A DNA stretch of 64,000 nucleotides from a virus. Location: positions 124,001 to 188,000 of IMG/VR virus record IMGVR_UViG_3300007512_001664; one strand, given 5' to 3'. The translations under genes and the position numbers were made by a program. Under the pieces are notes generated by a model that ran no database searches, was not told the origin of the DNA, and saw only the letters and a list, made by a program, of their open reading frames with translations. Shown piece by piece: positions 4,970 through 38,501 of the stretch (position 1 is its first letter; each line of letters begins with the position of its first letter).

Positions 4970-6214
4970 ATGAACAGGAGGCAGTTTATAGGAGCATTAG
5001 GAGCGTCGTTTGCTTTACCGGGATTGGAGTGTTTCGGTAATGTTTCTGAAGACATAAAAAGATTAGCTGTAGTTTATGTACCTAATGGTATAAACATGCA
5101 CCATTGGACTCCAAGTGCATATGGAGATATAATTGATATACCAAATACTCTATCTCCACTTGAAGCTCATTTAAATGAAACGCAAGTTATTTCTGGTTTA
5201 ACCCACGATAAAGCACGAGCTAATGGTGACGGGGCTGGCGATCATGCTCGAGCAGCTTCTACATTTTTAACTGGAAAGCAAGCTCATAAACATGAATCAA
5301 AAATTAGATCAGGTAAATCTGTTGATCAATACATAGCCGACAAATATAATGGAGTCACTCGATTCGATAGTTTACAAGTTACTGGCAGTAAGGCTCGTTT
5401 AGTAGGTAAATGTGATTCAGGTTATAGTTGTGCTTATCAATATAACTTGTCATGGAAGAATGCTCAACTGCCTATGGCAGCAATGCATGACCCGCAAGAT
5501 ATTTTTAATAGACTTTTTAATGTAAAGACGTTAGAGCAAAAACAATTAGTACATAAAAAATCTATTCTTGATTTTGTATTGGAGGAAAGTAAGACCTTGT
5601 CAGAAAAACTACCTACATCTGATAGAGTTAAGCTTGATGAATATATGTATGCAGTAAGGGAGGTTGAAAAGGACTTACAGACTAGAGAAAGGTTTAAACT
5701 TGATAAAGATTTTGAGCTCGATTTTGAAGTAAATAAAAAATCAAATAAAATAAGACTTTTATATAAGCTTATGCATCTAGCGTTCCTTAATGACACAACA
5801 CGTGTTATAACCTTTCTGACACAACACGATGGTTATAATGGCCCGCATAGAGAGATAGGAATAGCTGATGGTCACCATAGTCTGTCTCATCATCAAAAAG
5901 ATCCTAAAAAATTACATGACCTAGCAATGATAGATTTGTTTAATGTAAGATTGTTTTCTGAGTTTATTACTAAACTTAAAAAAGATAACTTACTAGAAAA
6001 TACAGATGTAATTTATGGTGCAGGTATATCAGACGGAAATAGACATAATCATGATGAATTACCGGTATTATTAGTGGGTGGAAAAAATAAAGGTAAACAT
6101 TTTAGAGTAGAAAAAGAAAAACCAATGTGTGATTTATTTGTAAGTTTGTTGCATAAGCATGGAATAGATATGCACCATTTTGGAGATTCTACGGGAGAGT
6201 TAAATATCGTTTAA
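4970..6214 (+). CDS. DUF1552-family protein with Tat-type signal
   Basis: The 414-residue protein starts with a twin-arginine-like signal (NRRQFIGALGASFALPGLE, residues 2-20) and continues with family-typical VVYVPNGINMHHWTP (residues 34-48), an ISGLTH motif, and GDHARAASTFLTG near residue 90. Later it has IYGAGISDGNRHNHDELP, resembling the metal-site region of alkaline-phosphatase-like folds. DUF1552 proteins are of unknown function, and I know them mainly from Planctomycetota, Verrucomicrobiota and Myxococcota. A phage copy is unusual and suggests capture from the host. A CCTAAATA box sits 5 bases before the ATG, so late expression is likely. Confidence 0.85.
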   Translation: MNRRQFIGALGASFALPGLECFGNVSEDIKRLAVVYVPNGINMHHWTPSAYGDIIDIPNTLSPLEAHLNETQVISGLTHDKARANGDGAGDHARAASTFLTGKQAHKHESKIRSGKSVDQYIADKYNGVTRFDSLQVTGSKARLVGKCDSGYSCAYQYNLSWKNAQLPMAAMHDPQDIFNRLFNVKTLEQKQLVHKKSILDFVLEESKTLSEKLPTSDRVKLDEYMYAVREVEKDLQTRERFKLDKDFELDFEVNKKSNKIRLLYKLMHLAFLNDTTRVITFLTQHDGYNGPHREIGIADGHHSLSHHQKDPKKLHDLAMIDLFNVRLFSEFITKLKKDNLLENTDVIYGAGISDGNRHNHDELPVLLVGGKNKGKHFRVEKEKPMCDLFVSLLHKHGIDMHHFGDSTGELNIV

Positions 6215-6798
6215 ATTAACTTTGTTTCTAATCGTGTAAATTCAAAAGTAGCAGAAGAGGTAATTTCTTCTCCTGTAGCATAGTTCCATTTAATTTCAGT
6301 TAATCTAGTAGGGAATGCGCCAATATAGTCCCATTGAATTTTTTTATTTTCATATTCATCTAAACCGTATACTGTTAAATTAGAGGAATATATAGGTAGT
6401 TGTTGGGACGGTGCCATTAATTGTTGAGGTGATTTATATTTTATAATATCATCTTCATTAAAATTGCCAGTTTTAACATCGTTAATAATATCAAGCCATT
6501 TATATATTGCCCAATAGTTATTAAATTCATTATCAATTCTAAAATCTAGATTTAAAGATTCATATGCTGGTCGAGCATGAGAACTGACTTTTATAGTTTG
6601 CGCACCGTATGGTAGTGTTTTTTCTGGTATACTAATGGTAGGTGTTACGGTACCAGCGACACTAATTTCTAAACTATTAGCATCGATTCTATTTGTGTTT
6701 CTGGTTATGTTATCTACAATATTTTTTATACCTTCAGGTAAATTTAAAACCAGTATAAATTTATCATGTCTATTTTTATTAAGTGGTGCTTGATTCAT
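6211..6798 (-). CDS. Tail-tube-fold protein, second gp19-like paralogue
   Basis: The 195-residue product has the tail-tube pattern: strand FILVLNLPEG (residues 15-24), then VAGTVTPTISIPEKTLPYG, a SLNLDFRIDN strand, and a closing TSSATFEFTRLE. It differs from the main tube protein at 229-819, so it may be a T4 gp54- or gp48-like tube initiator or another tube-fold adaptor. Its ATG overlaps the terminase stop by 4 bases (ATGA), so the two are co-transcribed. The 3' end overlaps the convergent DUF1552 gene by 4 bases. The fold call is fairly sure; the exact role is not. Confidence 0.65.
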   Translation of the reverse strand: MNQAPLNKNRHDKFILVLNLPEGIKNIVDNITRNTNRIDANSLEISVAGTVTPTISIPEKTLPYGAQTIKVSSHARPAYESLNLDFRIDNEFNNYWAIYKWLDIINDVKTGNFNEDDIIKYKSPQQLMAPSQQLPIYSSNLTVYGLDEYENKKIQWDYIGAFPTRLTEIKWNYATGEEITSSATFEFTRLETKLI

Positions 6799-8513
6799 AC
6801 TTTAATATATCCTTGTGCTTCTAATTCGTCCATATCTGTATTGTAGTTAGGAGCTCCGTCCTCATTAAAAATATTTATATCTGTAAAATGTACTGAAGGC
6901 GGATTCCAGCTGTCATCAATATTTTGCATTTTATAATCTTGCAAGAAGTTACTAAATTTTTGATCAATATATGGACCTAGTTCGATTTTTGCGGGGCGTT
7001 GATTATCGTCGATTTCTATAACATTATAATATTTTTGTATAACGCTATTTTCTAATATTAATAACGCCCATACCATTGCCATTACTCTGTCGTCAAAATC
7101 AAAGCCAGGCTGAGCAGCCCAAGAACCGTTCGGATACCGTACGAAGTTTTTCATTTCTACGACAGATGTTTTTGATTTTATGTCAACACATTTAATATCG
7201 TTAACCCAATATCTCATATTAGTAATACCCTTATATTTGGTATTAGTATGAGCGTATACTCCTAACCTGTCATATTTAATTTGACCTATTTTAGGGGACC
7301 AATTGACGATACTTCTATAATTATATTGGTGATATAAATTATCTACAACTTGACTACCGCAATTATTTCTTTCAATTAACACAGGAGGTGCTCCCCAGTG
7401 ATAACATATATCTCGAACTTTAGTAGTAAATTCAAACGGATTAATTTCGTTAGATGCATACTCTGCAACTTGTTTTATATGTTGTAAGTCAGTTATATCT
7501 AAGACTTGTATAACGCTATAGTTTTGACCGACACCTTCAGCTACATCAACACCAATAGTATATAAATGATCTTTATCTGGTTCTTCCCACACTCTATAAC
7601 ACCCATCGTCAAATACATATGTCGGTTCAGTTGTATTCGATAATAATTTTTCAAAGAAAATTTCATCAATAAACGAATCTCCTGTATCAAGAAACTTACA
7701 ATCAAATTCTTGAGCGAACGCTTCTTCACTACCTATAGACTTAATAGTGTCTTGTTTCCATTTTTCATCTCTACCGGGAACTTCATGCCATAGTATAGTT
7801 TCTGATTTCCAGTTGTTTACTCCTTTTTCTGCTTCTGTATATAACGTATAAAATAAGTTACCACTACCATTAGGGGTAGATGCTACAAATATTTTAGATT
7901 TTGTTGATGAGGAAATAATTGGATATACTGACTTCCAAAATTCTTCAACAAGATTATTTGGGATAAAAGCTAACTCATCTAGAATTAATACATTTACAGA
8001 TTCACCGCGACCAGCGTCCGAGCTAGTAGTGCTAATACCTATACTACTACCGTTTGCTAATTTCATGGATGTTTTACCATATTCTAAAACCCCGGGTTTA
8101 AGATAGTTCGGTAAATTTTCATATGCGAGTCTAACTCTCGAAAAAATACTAATTGCAGTTTGTTCTTTGTTAGCCACGATTAATATTCGCTGATCGTCCT
8201 GAAAGCAGGCAATCCATAAAGCGTAAATCGTCATCATGGTAGTTTTGCCTGTTTGTCTACTAGCTAAGCAAGCTACAAATCTGTTATCTCTCAGACTACG
8301 TAATACTCTTTTCTGACAAGGGTATAAGTTTATTTTTATTTTACCTCGATCAAGGTTAACAATGTGAAAAAAGTTTTCTGCAAAATAGAGAATGTTCTGT
8401 TTAGCTTTTTTAAGCGATTTGACCATGTCTGGAGTCCATTCATACTCCATGTTAGGGTTAGGTAAATTTGTATTACCTAAATAGAATTTATCGTCTTTTT
8501 TTAGCCTGGGCAC
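6795..8513 (-). CDS. 17: Terminase large subunit, T4 gp17 family
   Basis: The 572-residue protein has the ATPase P-loop SRQTGKTT (residues 85-92), Walker B VLILDE (175-180), and a C-terminal RNase-H-like nuclease with GVDVAEG near 322, LIERNNCG, and a distal FDFDDRVMAM acidic motif. It cuts concatemeric DNA and powers packaging through the portal. It starts with GTG (complement of 8511-8513), immediately next to a palindromic late-type box shared with the divergent gene at 8527. No small terminase is apparent in the window. Confidence 0.95.
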   Translation of the reverse strand: MPRLKKDDKFYLGNTNLPNPNMEYEWTPDMVKSLKKAKQNILYFAENFFHIVNLDRGKIKINLYPCQKRVLRSLRDNRFVACLASRQTGKTTMMTIYALWIACFQDDQRILIVANKEQTAISIFSRVRLAYENLPNYLKPGVLEYGKTSMKLANGSSIGISTTSSDAGRGESVNVLILDELAFIPNNLVEEFWKSVYPIISSSTKSKIFVASTPNGSGNLFYTLYTEAEKGVNNWKSETILWHEVPGRDEKWKQDTIKSIGSEEAFAQEFDCKFLDTGDSFIDEIFFEKLLSNTTEPTYVFDDGCYRVWEEPDKDHLYTIGVDVAEGVGQNYSVIQVLDITDLQHIKQVAEYASNEINPFEFTTKVRDICYHWGAPPVLIERNNCGSQVVDNLYHQYNYRSIVNWSPKIGQIKYDRLGVYAHTNTKYKGITNMRYWVNDIKCVDIKSKTSVVEMKNFVRYPNGSWAAQPGFDFDDRVMAMVWALLILENSVIQKYYNVIEIDDNQRPAKIELGPYIDQKFSNFLQDYKMQNIDDSWNPPSVHFTDINIFNEDGAPNYNTDMDELEAQGYIKV

Positions 8514-8526: not shown

Positions 8527-9774
8527 ATGAACAGCAAAGATTTAAACTCTATTAATGAAGCCTTTGCAAATGCTACGGCAAAGGTAGTTGCTGAAGACAC
8601 TGCGAAGACGGAAACTATTCTTGAAGAGGATAGTAAGAAAGTTAATGAAGACCTCGGTCCAGATTTTGGTGATGAAGAGGATTTTGGTGATCCTTCTCGT
8701 CATAGTGGTGATTATTTAGATGATGAGCCATTAGATGTCGGGGATCTAGTAGAGGTTGAGGGTGAGGATGATGATTACGTAGTTATTGATGTTGACGGTG
8801 AGTATCTTAATTTAGCTGCCGTTGGCGACGCAATCGAGGTTAAAAGAGACAGTGTTGTAAAGAAAGAATCAGTTAGAGTTGAAAGAAAGCTAGTCACACT
8901 TAAGGAGAAAAAGAAAATTATGAGTTTTACAAATATAATGGAAGAGTATGAAAGTCGGTTATCTTCAGGTTCAAAAGGCTTTTCGTTAAAAGCTAGATTA
9001 AATGAAGAGGACGGTACGTCATATAAGCAGCCTGATGAAAGTAAGTATAATAAGGTTGACGATAAAACACAACGTCCTGCTGAAGAAACCGATTCAACAA
9101 AGGAGTCACCTACATGTAATGTCGAGGATGATTTGCAAGAGCCTAAAGAAGCAGAAGAAAAAGTTGCTGAAAAGGAAGAGAAAGTTGTTGAGGATAGTAT
9201 AAATAATTCTAACAAAGGTAATATTATGTCAGAAGATAAATCTATATTTGATAAGCTCTACGAGCAAGTTATGAATGAAGACGATGAATTCGGTGCTGAG
9301 TTAGGTCTGCCTAGCCCTGATGATCTCGGGTTTGATGACGACGAAACAGGTGATGAAAACGGTGATGTTACTATCACATTAACTGCCGATCAAGCCGCTG
9401 CCATTCAAGCCGTCGCTGATCAATTAGCTCCAGCCGACGACGACACAGCAGAAGATGAATTTGACGCTGCTGAAGAACCGGAAGAGGGAGTTGCACATGA
9501 AAGTGCAGAGAACGCTGAAACAGTGTCTGAGGGAGATGAAACATCTACTGGAAAGCCGACAGGCGCTGGTGCAAAGACAGGTGTTGATCCTTCTGATGGT
9601 GGTGGTAATGCTACAGATCCAGCTGCTGATAGTTTAGGTGGTAAGTCTACAGGTACGGGTGATGCTAAGGTTACGGACGACGATCCGACAACTGGCAAGC
9701 CGACGACTGATGGTAAAAAGACTGGTGATACCAAGTATGGCAAAGGCCCGTTAAAGGCTAATGCAAAGACATAA
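8527..9774 (+). CDS. Highly acidic protein, probable prohead core/internal protein
   Basis: The 415-residue product is extremely Asp/Glu-rich, with a low-complexity Gly/Thr/Lys/Asp tail (residues 340-415). It looks like three joined units. Internal methionines at 8920 (residue 132, with AAGGAG 12 bases upstream) and 9226 (residue 234) each begin a short helix ending in an L-x-E-like or M-x-E site followed by acidic residues (ARLNEEDG, YEQVMNEDDEFG). L/I-x-E is the cleavage signal of the T4 prohead protease gp21, so these may be capsid-targeting pieces. That role is inference. A rho-independent terminator follows. Confidence 0.75.
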   Translation: MNSKDLNSINEAFANATAKVVAEDTAKTETILEEDSKKVNEDLGPDFGDEEDFGDPSRHSGDYLDDEPLDVGDLVEVEGEDDDYVVIDVDGEYLNLAAVGDAIEVKRDSVVKKESVRVERKLVTLKEKKKIMSFTNIMEEYESRLSSGSKGFSLKARLNEEDGTSYKQPDESKYNKVDDKTQRPAEETDSTKESPTCNVEDDLQEPKEAEEKVAEKEEKVVEDSINNSNKGNIMSEDKSIFDKLYEQVMNEDDEFGAELGLPSPDDLGFDDDETGDENGDVTITLTADQAAAIQAVADQLAPADDDTAEDEFDAAEEPEEGVAHESAENAETVSEGDETSTGKPTGAGAKTGVDPSDGGGNATDPAADSLGGKSTGTGDAKVTDDDPTTGKPTTDGKKTGDTKYGKGPLKANAKT

Positions 9775-9797: not shown

Positions 9798-9829
9798 AGC
9801 CCTCTACATTAATGTAGGGGGCTTTTTTT
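9798..9829 (+). terminator. Rho-independent terminator after the acidic protein gene
   Basis: AGCCCTCTACAT pairs with ATGTAGGGGGCT around a two-base loop, with one G-T wobble in a 12-base-pair stem, and is followed by a run of seven T residues ending at 9829. It lies 24 bases after the stop codon at 9774 and is the clearest terminator in the window. Confidence 0.88.
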
Positions 9830-11861: not shown

Positions 11862-12272
11862 ATGGGAAAGTTTGAAAATAGGTTTTTATCTTTACTTTCA
11901 GAAGATGAACCAGGTCCGCCAATACCTGCTCCAGCGATTGATGCTGCACCAGAAGATGATAAAGAGTCTTTCGCAAATGCTTTAGATGAACCAGGTCATG
12001 CAGCTGATTTCGAGGACGTAATAGATCAAAACCCCAATGAACAGGAAGAACTTAAAGATCTACAAGAGTGGATTACGAACATTGATGATGTATTACAATA
12101 CCTTAACGGCGGTGTTAATAGTGTATTAGGGAAGTTAAGAAACGATAATAAAGTAGGTACTATTTTCGCTGATGTTTCTGATTCAACAAAAAATGAAATT
12201 TTAGATGTATGTGAAAGATTGGCAGGTTTACATCAAATTTTAAAGAACCTTTATATAGAAAAGCATAAATAA
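11862..12272 (+). CDS. Acidic protein with possible prohead cleavage site
   Basis: The 136-residue protein starts MGKFENRFLSLLSE, a short basic helix ending in L-S-E, then a Pro/Ala/Asp/Glu-rich stretch (residues 15-60) and a C-terminal helical domain. The L-x-E site followed by acidic residues matches the pattern also seen inside the 8527-9774 and 37335-38501 products, so packaging into the prohead is a reasonable guess. No family is recognised. Confidence 0.65.
   Translation: MGKFENRFLSLLSEDEPGPPIPAPAIDAAPEDDKESFANALDEPGHAADFEDVIDQNPNEQEELKDLQEWITNIDDVLQYLNGGVNSVLGKLRNDNKVGTIFADVSDSTKNEILDVCERLAGLHQILKNLYIEKHK
12264..12271 (+). promoter_or_regulatory. Late-promoter-like box CATAAATA
   Basis: CATAAATA overlaps the stop of the upstream gene and lies 9 bases before ATG 12281. 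It shares the ATAAATAATTA core with boxes at 37321 and 11849. Confidence 0.4.
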
Positions 12273-32706: not shown

Positions 32707-33749
32707 ACAAATTGATTATACAAATGTACGGTTCTTCTTATTACTTCTTCCTTGCTGTCTATGTCTAAGGATTCAATATATTCTATAATACATTGCTTAA
32801 TATTCAAGTCTCCTATCTCATTCGTTATTGCGATATTATCCCCGATACTAAATTTATGTAAATAATCTGTTACTAATGAGAACGGTGCTTCAAAATTTAT
32901 AGCTGCTATTATTTTATCGAGTATGTTTGTCTTTATATCCTTATCAATAACAATTTTTATGGCTAACTTTGACCAACCGACCTCTTTTGCGATTGTTTTT
33001 AGTTTTTCGAGCTCACTTAAGTTTACTTTTACGTGAATAGGTGATATTTTATTTTCAATAAAAGTATATTCTATGCTTTGTCCACTAAGATCAAGAATAT
33101 AAAAGCCTTTCTGGTCTTGTATATCATTAAAATCCATTTCAAACGGATTTCCTGCATAAATTATCTCTCCGTTTGAATATTTTCGACGCTGACGTTTGTG
33201 AAAGTGACCAGATATTATAAGGTTGGATCTTGTTAGTAAGTCACACGATTGAACGCCTGATTCACATACTTTAAAGCTATTAAAATTAAAATTTTCAATT
33301 TCAAAGTGCCCGATTATTAAATCAGAGTCTGAGATCTCACTTACACTGGTTCCCCACGGGCAAAAGCAAATATTAAACCCGAACATATTTTGCACGCTTG
33401 GTTCATTAATAATATGAATATTGTTCCTGTTACTTAAAATAGATAGTGAATGTACGTTAGAGTTATCTTTGTAATATGCGTCATGATTCCCGGGGATCAT
33501 GAATATTTCAAAATCATTAAATAAATCTAGTAAATTATTTGCAAAGTGCAAAGATTTAACGTTTATTTCATCTCTATAGTGAAAAAAATCCCCGCCAAAT
33601 ATTATTTTAGTGATTTTCTCCTTTTTTAACTCCGATGTAAACCATTTCGCCCACTCAAACGCCACATCATGCCATTTTTCACTGTTTTGATGTATACCGA
33701 TATGTAAATCGGAGAAGAAACCGATTTTTTTATTGTTTTCGGTTACCAT
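32703..33749 (-). CDS. 47: Recombination endonuclease subunit, T4 gp47 (Mre11/SbcD-like)
   Basis: The 348-residue calcineurin-like phosphoesterase has FFSDLHIGIH (residues 11-20), GGDFFHYRDE (about 52), PGNHDAYYK (about 85), and IISGHFHKRQ (about 180) followed by YAGNPFEMDF. All metal-binding motifs are present. It forms the nuclease with gp46 and overlaps the sigma factor gene by one base. Confidence 0.92.
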   Translation of the reverse strand: MVTENNKKIGFFSDLHIGIHQNSEKWHDVAFEWAKWFTSELKKEKITKIIFGGDFFHYRDEINVKSLHFANNLLDLFNDFEIFMIPGNHDAYYKDNSNVHSLSILSNRNNIHIINEPSVQNMFGFNICFCPWGTSVSEISDSDLIIGHFEIENFNFNSFKVCESGVQSCDLLTRSNLIISGHFHKRQRRKYSNGEIIYAGNPFEMDFNDIQDQKGFYILDLSGQSIEYTFIENKISPIHVKVNLSELEKLKTIAKEVGWSKLAIKIVIDKDIKTNILDKIIAAINFEAPFSLVTDYLHKFSIGDNIAITNEIGDLNIKQCIIEYIESLDIDSKEEVIRRTVHLYNQFV

Positions 33750-34189
33750 TATGTGTATAATTCTCGATCGTAATCTTTAACTGGTTGTTTATTAAAAATT
33801 TTTTCTTCATTAGCTAAAGATCCATATACTTGCTCTTGATAATCATTAATTGTTTCTCTATATTTTTTTTCCTTCTTTATTCTATTAATAAATGCGTGAT
33901 ATGCAATAGTAGTAAAATATGAAAACGGATTTGACTCAGAATCAAGATTAAATTTTTTATTTTTTACAGCAGCTATCATTTTTACAACAGCATCACCTAT
34001 CATTTCGTCTTTATAACTATAGTTTATAAAGTTCGGAGAATAACTTAAACCGACAGCGATTTTATAAACTGACTCAGCTAGTTCGTCGATTAAATCATCC
34101 GTGCTATAATATTCTGTTAGTTGTTGTAAAAATTGTTTTGGATTAACGTAATATGTTTTTTTATTTGGTTTCTTTGTCTTTGGTTTCAT
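33749..34189 (-). CDS. 55: Late sigma factor, T4 gp55
   Basis: The 146-residue protein (T4 gp55 is 185) has the sigma region-2-like core YSYKDEMIGDAVVKMI (residues 57-72) and PFSYFTTIAYHAFINRIKKEKKYRE (around 89-113), which closely follows T4. gp55 directs host RNA polymerase to TATAAATA-type late promoters. The T4 clamp-binding tail SLDFLYE is not obvious; the end here is KDYDRELYT. Its presence supports the late-type boxes seen in the window. Confidence 0.9.
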   Translation of the reverse strand: MKPKTKKPNKKTYYVNPKQFLQQLTEYYSTDDLIDELAESVYKIAVGLSYSPNFINYSYKDEMIGDAVVKMIAAVKNKKFNLDSESNPFSYFTTIAYHAFINRIKKEKKYRETINDYQEQVYGSLANEEKIFNKQPVKDYDRELYT

Positions 34190-37334: not shown

Positions 37335-38501
37335 ATGAGTAAGTTTCTTAAAAAAATCGCTGAATTGACAACAGGTCATGATGATACGCACTCTACTGAG
37401 ACTCAAACCCTTGCTAACCTAAGAAAAAAGCAGAAGGAGACGCCTAATGATCTTACTGATGATGAAAAGCGAGCATTAAAAGATGATGATGAAAGAACTA
37501 AAAAGCTCCAAACCAAGGTTCAACGGGATATACAGGCCTTAAATTCTTCAACAGAAGTAATTAACTCAATGCTCATCGAGGCTCCAGGAGATGAATTTGT
37601 TCCTAGACAAGGACCACCTGTTGGTGGTGAATTTGAACCAGCTATTCCGCCTCCTGGAGTTGGAGCTCCACCGTTACCGGATCCTGTTCAAGAGCCAGCT
37701 GAACCGTTAACGACAGAAGGAGAAACATTTTTAGTAAATCTTGCTCGTAAAGCATTACATATTAACTTAGATGATGTATTACTATCAGACGCTGATAGAG
37801 AACTTATTAATAAAGATGCTGAACCAGAAACTGCTAAAAAGGTAGCTAAAATTGTACACAAGATACTAGTCGATCAAGGATATACTGAAAGTTTTGTTAA
37901 TAAAGCAGACATGGTCCTCGAGGATCTATTAAAAAAAAACGATAAAGTAGTTGTTCTTGTTCCTGGTAGCTTTAAACCACCTCATAAAGGTCATTATGAA
38001 ATGGTCGAACATTATAGCCGAGCCTATCCTGATGGTCATGTACATGTTTTAATTTCTGCACCGTCTGCTAAGAGTGAGAGAAGAACTAAAGACGGTAAAG
38101 TAATTACTCCATCTGCTGCTGCGCAGATTTTTGAACTATACGTTCAACCTCTTAATAATGTAACAGTAAGTATTTCTGAATATCCGTCCCCAGTTACGGC
38201 AGCGTATGAATCTCTTAAGACGTTAGATACTGGAACAACGGTAGTTTTAGGAGCTAGTACAAAAGATAATGATTGGAAGCGCTGGTCATATGCACGTCCA
38301 TGGGCCGAGAAAGAAGGATTAGGTTTAAATATCCTCGACCCGGAACAGACTGCAGTTAATGTTAGTACAAATCCATCAGGCCGTCCTTATAGCGCTAGTA
38401 ATATTAGAGATAATTTTGACGATTTTGAAAAAATAAGGACTGACATACCGGAGCATGTCAATCCTGAGGAGGTTAAGCAAGTTTTTGATTCTCTTCAGTA
38501 A
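37335..38501 (+). CDS. Fusion: acidic virion-type N-terminus + HIGH-superfamily nucleotidyltransferase
   Basis: The 388-residue protein has two parts. The C-terminal half (from about residue 207) is a cytidylyltransferase/NMN-adenylyltransferase-type domain with VVLVPGSFKPPHKGHYEM (the HxGH motif, HKGH), VILGAS-like TTVVLGASTKDNDWKRW and SASNIRDNF. The N-terminal part (1-200) is helical and Pro/Glu-rich with INSMLIEAPGDE (about 75-86), a good L-x-E prohead-protease-type site. An enzyme carried in or delivered by the capsid is possible. The substrate is unknown; NAD or lipid/sugar CDP chemistry are options. Confidence 0.8.
   Translation: MSKFLKKIAELTTGHDDTHSTETQTLANLRKKQKETPNDLTDDEKRALKDDDERTKKLQTKVQRDIQALNSSTEVINSMLIEAPGDEFVPRQGPPVGGEFEPAIPPPGVGAPPLPDPVQEPAEPLTTEGETFLVNLARKALHINLDDVLLSDADRELINKDAEPETAKKVAKIVHKILVDQGYTESFVNKADMVLEDLLKKNDKVVVLVPGSFKPPHKGHYEMVEHYSRAYPDGHVHVLISAPSAKSERRTKDGKVITPSAAAQIFELYVQPLNNVTVSISEYPSPVTAAYESLKTLDTGTTVVLGASTKDNDWKRWSYARPWAEKEGLGLNILDPEQTAVNVSTNPSGRPYSASNIRDNFDDFEKIRTDIPEHVNPEEVKQVFDSLQ

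Follow-up and report, generated by a model that had tools for sequence, protein, structure and literature searches.

A probable pair of nested late genes in one reading frame, with an internal late promoter motif, next to the terminase gene of a T4-like phage

The window analysed here is the whole stretch of 64,000 nucleotides covering positions 124001-188000 within a virus record of 200,819 bases. By its gene content, the phage is T4-like, as it encodes gp17, sheath, portal, gp21, gp23 and a gp55 late sigma factor. The gp55-type sigma factor, which would read the late promoter core TATAAATA, is encoded at 33749-34189 on the minus strand (phrog_234, E 1.6e-28). The gene of the large terminase gp17 (6795-8513, minus strand), from which the tree described below was derived, encodes a protein with at most 39% identity to gp17 of the cultured phages compared. 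Divergent from it lies a long ORF (8527-9774, plus strand) for an acidic protein of 415 aa (pI 4.1; 110 D+E vs 45 K+R), composed of a leader, a variable module, a linker and a C-terminal constant domain. The frame is open in all relatives examined, and 3′ of the ORF there is a terminator-like intrinsic hairpin with a T run (9798-9823, plus strand; one found vs 0.8 expected in shuffles). Furthermore, a DUF1552 protein (E 4.5e-78) is encoded at window positions 4970-6214 and two proteins with prepilin methylation motifs at G000:63416-65385. Proteins of both kinds are frequent in Planctomycetota and Verrucomicrobiota, which hints at a possible host from one of these groups.

An earlier note, made from the letters of this DNA, had described 8527-9774 as one open, acidic and composite frame with internal starts. 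This description could be confirmed, as the ORF contains the in-frame internal methionines Met132 (ATG 8920) and Met234 (ATG 9226). The strongest features were missed there, namely the sequence TATAAATA in front of both ATG 8527 and ATG 9226, and the third of the three stretches distinguished there, which corresponds to a putative nested gene with its own late promoter motif, was overlooked as such.

For the comparison with relatives, a close set of 33 distinct loci was used; in none of them is the frame interrupted before the nested part, within the limits of the sequence available. With a profile built on the nested part, a second, distant set of 42 loci with upstream sequence was obtained. 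The resulting 75 loci are related to each other, so that the counts given below are not independent.

In T4, the consensus of the late promoter core is TATAAATA, at positions -13 to -6. Exact matches to this T4-type consensus could be identified at two places of the locus. The first, P1 (8514-8521, plus strand), lies in the 13-bp gap between gp17 and the ORF, 5 nt before ATG 8527, and is conserved in relatives. If the T4 geometry applies, in which an 8-bp box precedes the transcription start by roughly one helical turn (PMC2988020), the predicted +1 is the A of ATG 8527 and the mRNA of the long form would be nearly leaderless. Among the distant relatives, TAAATA is found 5 or 6 nt upstream of the long start in 34 of 42 loci.

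The second match, the internal P2 (9198-9205, plus strand), precedes the in-frame ATG 9226 by 20 nt and has a predicted +1 at about 9211, with a Shine-Dalgarno-like AAAGG (9214-9218, plus strand) between promoter and start codon. The nested ORF that would be read from there (9226-9774, plus strand) encodes 182 aa with a pI of 4.05, begins with MSEDKSIFDKLYE|Q and is constant in all relatives. In a codon-by-codon comparison of the 33 close relatives, the P2 stretch shows the lowest synonymous difference of the ORF (0.015-0.03), compared with 0.3-0.45 in most regions; a second dip (0.06-0.10) is located at the N-terminus of the ORF. At three P2 codons of close relatives amino-acid changes are tolerated (N227T, S228C and N232T), and together with the synonymous minimum this points to a constraint on the DNA or RNA more than on the protein. 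At all 42 distant loci the internal ATG follows TAAATA at a distance of exactly 5 nt, and in all of them the upstream part is fused in frame and open over at least 98 codons. The residues encoded around P2 vary there (SLNNF, RLNNF, AINKF, TINTF), while TAAATA-N5-ATG remains constant. A stand-alone nested domain was found at none of the close and distant loci with upstream sequence.

As a control, 855 in-frame internal ATGs of the predicted genes of this genome were considered, and TAAATA stands 4-10 nt before only 4 of them; one of the four probably reflects a mis-set start and another belongs to a second nested case. In the latter gene (L007:1994-2380, G000:58994-59383), TATAAATA-N5-ATG occurs twice, first at the gene start and then, in the same frame, at codon 40, an arrangement that is kept in two relatives. 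At the locus studied, the two ORFs have a common C-terminus, and the internal start is conserved and accompanied by its own signal, as in a nested in-frame pair. At the level of sequence, these patterns give good support to a nested arrangement that includes an internal late promoter motif, and one frame most likely encodes both a long protein of 415 aa and a nested short protein of 182 aa.

In the genome as a whole, TAAATA was found 5-9 nt before the start in 54 matches over 256 predicted ORFs, with about 3.5 expected. Many late mRNAs would therefore be nearly leaderless, provided that +1 sits as in T4. The spacing between TAAATA and the start codon is mostly 20-28 in T4 and P-SSM7 and equals 5 in nine genes of HTVC008M; in one pelagimyophage study the prediction of late promoters is reported to have failed (PMC7029224). 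Longer leaders with AAAGG are present at P2, at gp18 (18 nt) and at gp23 (TATAAATG, 16 nt). Since the P2 leader is of the same kind as those of the sheath and capsid genes in the clade, the short form would be expected to be more abundant than the long form.

The leader of the long form (8527-8628, plus strand, aa 1-34) resembles capsid targeting sequences and contains the candidate gp21 sites INE|A (8551-8559, aa 9-11) and ILE/E (8617-8628). In its sequence, MNSKDLNSINE|A is similar to T4 leaders and to other leaders of the same genome. In the aligned relatives, the glutamate of INE|A is found in 26 of 27 sequences and the alanine in all 27. The relative L032 has IND|A instead; an Asp in the corresponding place of T4 IPIII prevents processing and leaves targeting intact (PMC9026906). 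The ILE/E site is replaced by VVTE in many relatives and marks the boundary before the swapped modules. The segment behind it (8629-9192, plus strand, aa 35-222) comprises the variable module and the linker, and relatives carry other acidic, basic or CxxC-rich modules at this place; for aa 1-233 a pI of 4.32 was calculated. The nested protein has a candidate cleavage site of its own, LYE|Q (9256-9264, plus strand, aa 244-246), which is conserved in 33 of 33 close relatives.

All three x-x-E sites that the earlier note had placed at the ends of its three stretches exist, but only INE and LYE are conserved, whereas the middle site IME|E (aa 137-139) has the glutamate in only 4 of 28 relatives. 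Likewise, the middle start proposed there (8902-8922, plus strand) does consist of AAGGAG (8902-8907) and ATG 8920, but the two are 12 nt apart, and the site is weak and not conserved. ATG 8920 was rejected as a conserved internal start, its module being absent or replaced in other relatives. In the ORF, [LI]xE occurs 9 times, while shuffled sequences would have 4.2 (p 0.016); any one such motif therefore counts for little in a sequence this rich in Glu, and the motif followed by A, G or S is not enriched in the ORF (1 vs 1.0 expected). In the distant relatives, sites such as LVSE|G, ILRE|S and IINE|G close the leader, and some [LIV]xE lies within the first 45 residues in 41 of 42, a count that says little by itself in Glu-rich sequence. 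In the close clade, candidates for the leader cut are the glutamates of INE11, VAE23 and ILE33.

The conserved sites could also belong to a polyprotein, in which one long product is cut into three by gp21 and the conservation of a peptide accounts for the internal promoter motif. The conserved Glu of the leader site and of LYE would fit, and in T4 the core proteins gp22, gp67 and gp68 are fragmented by gp21 (PMC5694885). However, the middle site is not conserved, and the P2 stretch is kept as DNA more than as protein, the distant loci changing its residues around an invariant TAAATA-N5-ATG; this explanation is therefore considered improbable.

The identification of the prohead protease and of its capsid site elsewhere in the genome had been proposed as a check in the earlier note, and candidates for both could be found. 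The genome encodes a gp21-type protease (Peptidase_S77, PF03420, E 6.5e-31; PHROG head maturation protease phrog_207, E 8e-56), and in gp23 of the studied phage CLRE|G takes the position that LTE|A has in T4. At this gp23 site, [LIVM]xE is kept in 66 of 76 sequences, 58 of which have A, G or S next. Within residues 4-24, [LI]xE is enriched in late-promoter genes (23 of 65, 10-12 expected) and slightly so in the remaining genes (45 of 191, 33-35 expected). Three unrelated genes (84275, 84591 and 85354) have the leader MKDKDAQLMME|A or MRDKDAHLMME|A in common, and further leaders like capsid targeting sequences were detected in unrelated proteins (MKYDTEAQLIWE|A, MIPFKQYIAE|A and MKSFIDFINE|A). 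The leader of T4 IPIII, MKTYQEFIAE|A, is much like these leaders of unrelated late proteins, and in T4 a leader of 10 residues is enough for targeting (PMC9026906). A cluster of unrelated proteins whose N-termini resemble capsid targeting sequences, with a final Glu followed by Ala or Gly, is located at G000:80384-86052 (L008) and is, on these N-termini, a candidate head cargo island. In addition, a protein with LysM and lysozyme-like parts (L005:13591-14451, G000:32591-33451) has a leader, VFLRE|G, that resembles the CLRE|G of gp23.

Two further sites of the same type had been noticed before. The late protein encoded at 11862-12272 (plus strand) has the leader MGKFENRFLSLLSE|D with the LLSE site at its N-terminus, kept as LLKE in the relatives L147 and L149. 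The late gene at 37335-38501 (plus strand), preceded by TATAAATA-N6 and with a weak cytidylyltransferase-like match, does contain MLIE|A (LIE|A), which lies near residue 83. The idea of a shared signal that sends proteins into the prohead for cleavage by a gp21-type protease is partly supported: the gp21 gene, the gp23 site, the conserved INE and LYE and the shared leaders favour it, and the middle site and the middle start, being not conserved, speak against it.

The similarity searches gave no match that would support a role in the head. No cultured-phage homologues were found by tblastn with six queries (the low-complexity filter, which was on, may hide some), and neither P0001 nor the nested domain significantly matched any profile of Pfam, PHROGs, NCBIfam or PDB. 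P0003 did match PHROG profiles (E 4e-5 to 5e-4), but largely through its charged variable module, and these matches were discarded. Neither the similarity to T4 gp67 and gp68 (family HMM, best E 0.87) nor homology to genes of HTVC008M, P-SSM7 or RM378 was significant. In the gp17 tree, the nested loci that could be placed form one clade (99/98) apart from T4, P-SSM7, HTVC008M and RM378; the studied phage groups with L221 (99/98) and RM378 is outside on a long branch. This T4-like clade is a likely candidate for Far-T4, and a word search of the Far-T4 paper (Roux et al., 2015, PMC4360716) gave no mention of promoters or internal proteins.

It is also conceivable that the products are not head proteins at all but acidic late regulators or DNA mimics, with the x-x-E motifs arising by chance in Glu-rich sequence. 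The high Glu content does make single motifs likely, and no head family was matched in the profile searches. Against this, INE|A and LYE are conserved and suitably positioned, the leaders resemble those of unrelated late genes, and the sites match the capsid site of the same clade, which leaves this explanation a small chance.

The pooled dN/dS amounts to 0.67 for the leader (aa 1-34), 0.25-0.27 for aa 35-222 and 0.12-0.17 for the nested part, and by this measure aa 35-222, upstream of the nested start, are under purifying selection. That only the short protein works, made from P2 and the nested ORF, with the long frame as an accidental or vestigial in-frame extension, would suit the nested domain as the most conserved part and a P2 that has in this clade a T4-like leader and a Shine-Dalgarno-like site where P1 is leaderless, but it is unlikely in view of the upstream dN/dS, of an upstream frame that is open at varied lengths in every relative examined, and of the TAAATA of P1 kept at 5-6 nt in most distant loci.

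Taken together, the motifs and conservation patterns make it probable, though by no means certain, that two late genes are nested here in a single frame and that both of their products are head-targeted and cleaved by gp21. From P1, in the 13-bp gap next to gp17, an mRNA starting at or beside ATG 8527 would be made and translated into the long protein with its capsid-targeting-like leader, swappable module and constant acidic C-terminal domain. From P2, within the coding sequence, a second mRNA would yield the constant domain alone from ATG 9226. Both products would enter the prohead core, presumably with the short form in greater amount, and the gp21 protease may cut after a leader Glu and after LYE, releasing the module. 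A more tentative extension, which we consider possible but rather doubtful, is a two-isoform loading device, in which the short form builds the prohead core, the constant domain of the long form carries the exchangeable module in, and gp21 frees it. If so, the clade could exchange its cargo through changes in a single segment, the promoters on either side of it staying fixed.

A nested pair of this kind would be a case of a late promoter inside a coding sequence that, at fixed spacing across an uncultivated T4-like clade, sets two forms of one head-related protein. For phages for which no cultured member was found, the analysis provides start sites and cut sites that can be tested, and it lists candidates for packaged proteins. 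A second product of this kind would escape gene callers that give each frame a single start.

Several known systems share part of this arrangement. The T4 internal proteins IPI-IPIII and Alt with their capsid targeting sequence of 10-20 residues are comparable in the short leader ending in (L/I)xE with unrelated or variable parts behind it (PMC9026906, PMC3012670), whereas here these parts continue in frame into a constant acidic domain. IP-like proteins are described as basic (PMC9026906), in contrast to the pI of 4.1 found here, although some relatives carry basic modules. T4 gp67 and gp68 are likewise acidic head-core proteins, gp67 with the site FLIE|GEEPEDEDED, but the gene described here adjoins gp17 and is not located between gp20 and gp21. 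T4 gene 17 (17'A, 17'B and 17'') and gene 21 (21') also have in-frame internal starts in a packaging or head gene, with annotated internal transcription and in-frame translation; here, other proteins are concerned, the internal promoter motif has a fixed spacing across the clade, and what is nested is a constant domain of acidic character. In the C/Nu3 pair of phage lambda, a nested in-frame start gives rise to a short scaffold that is the C-terminal part of a longer head protein, by internal translation initiation without a separate late promoter. The nested in-frame arrangement is common to lambda and the locus described here, while the latter differs in having an internal late promoter motif of its own.
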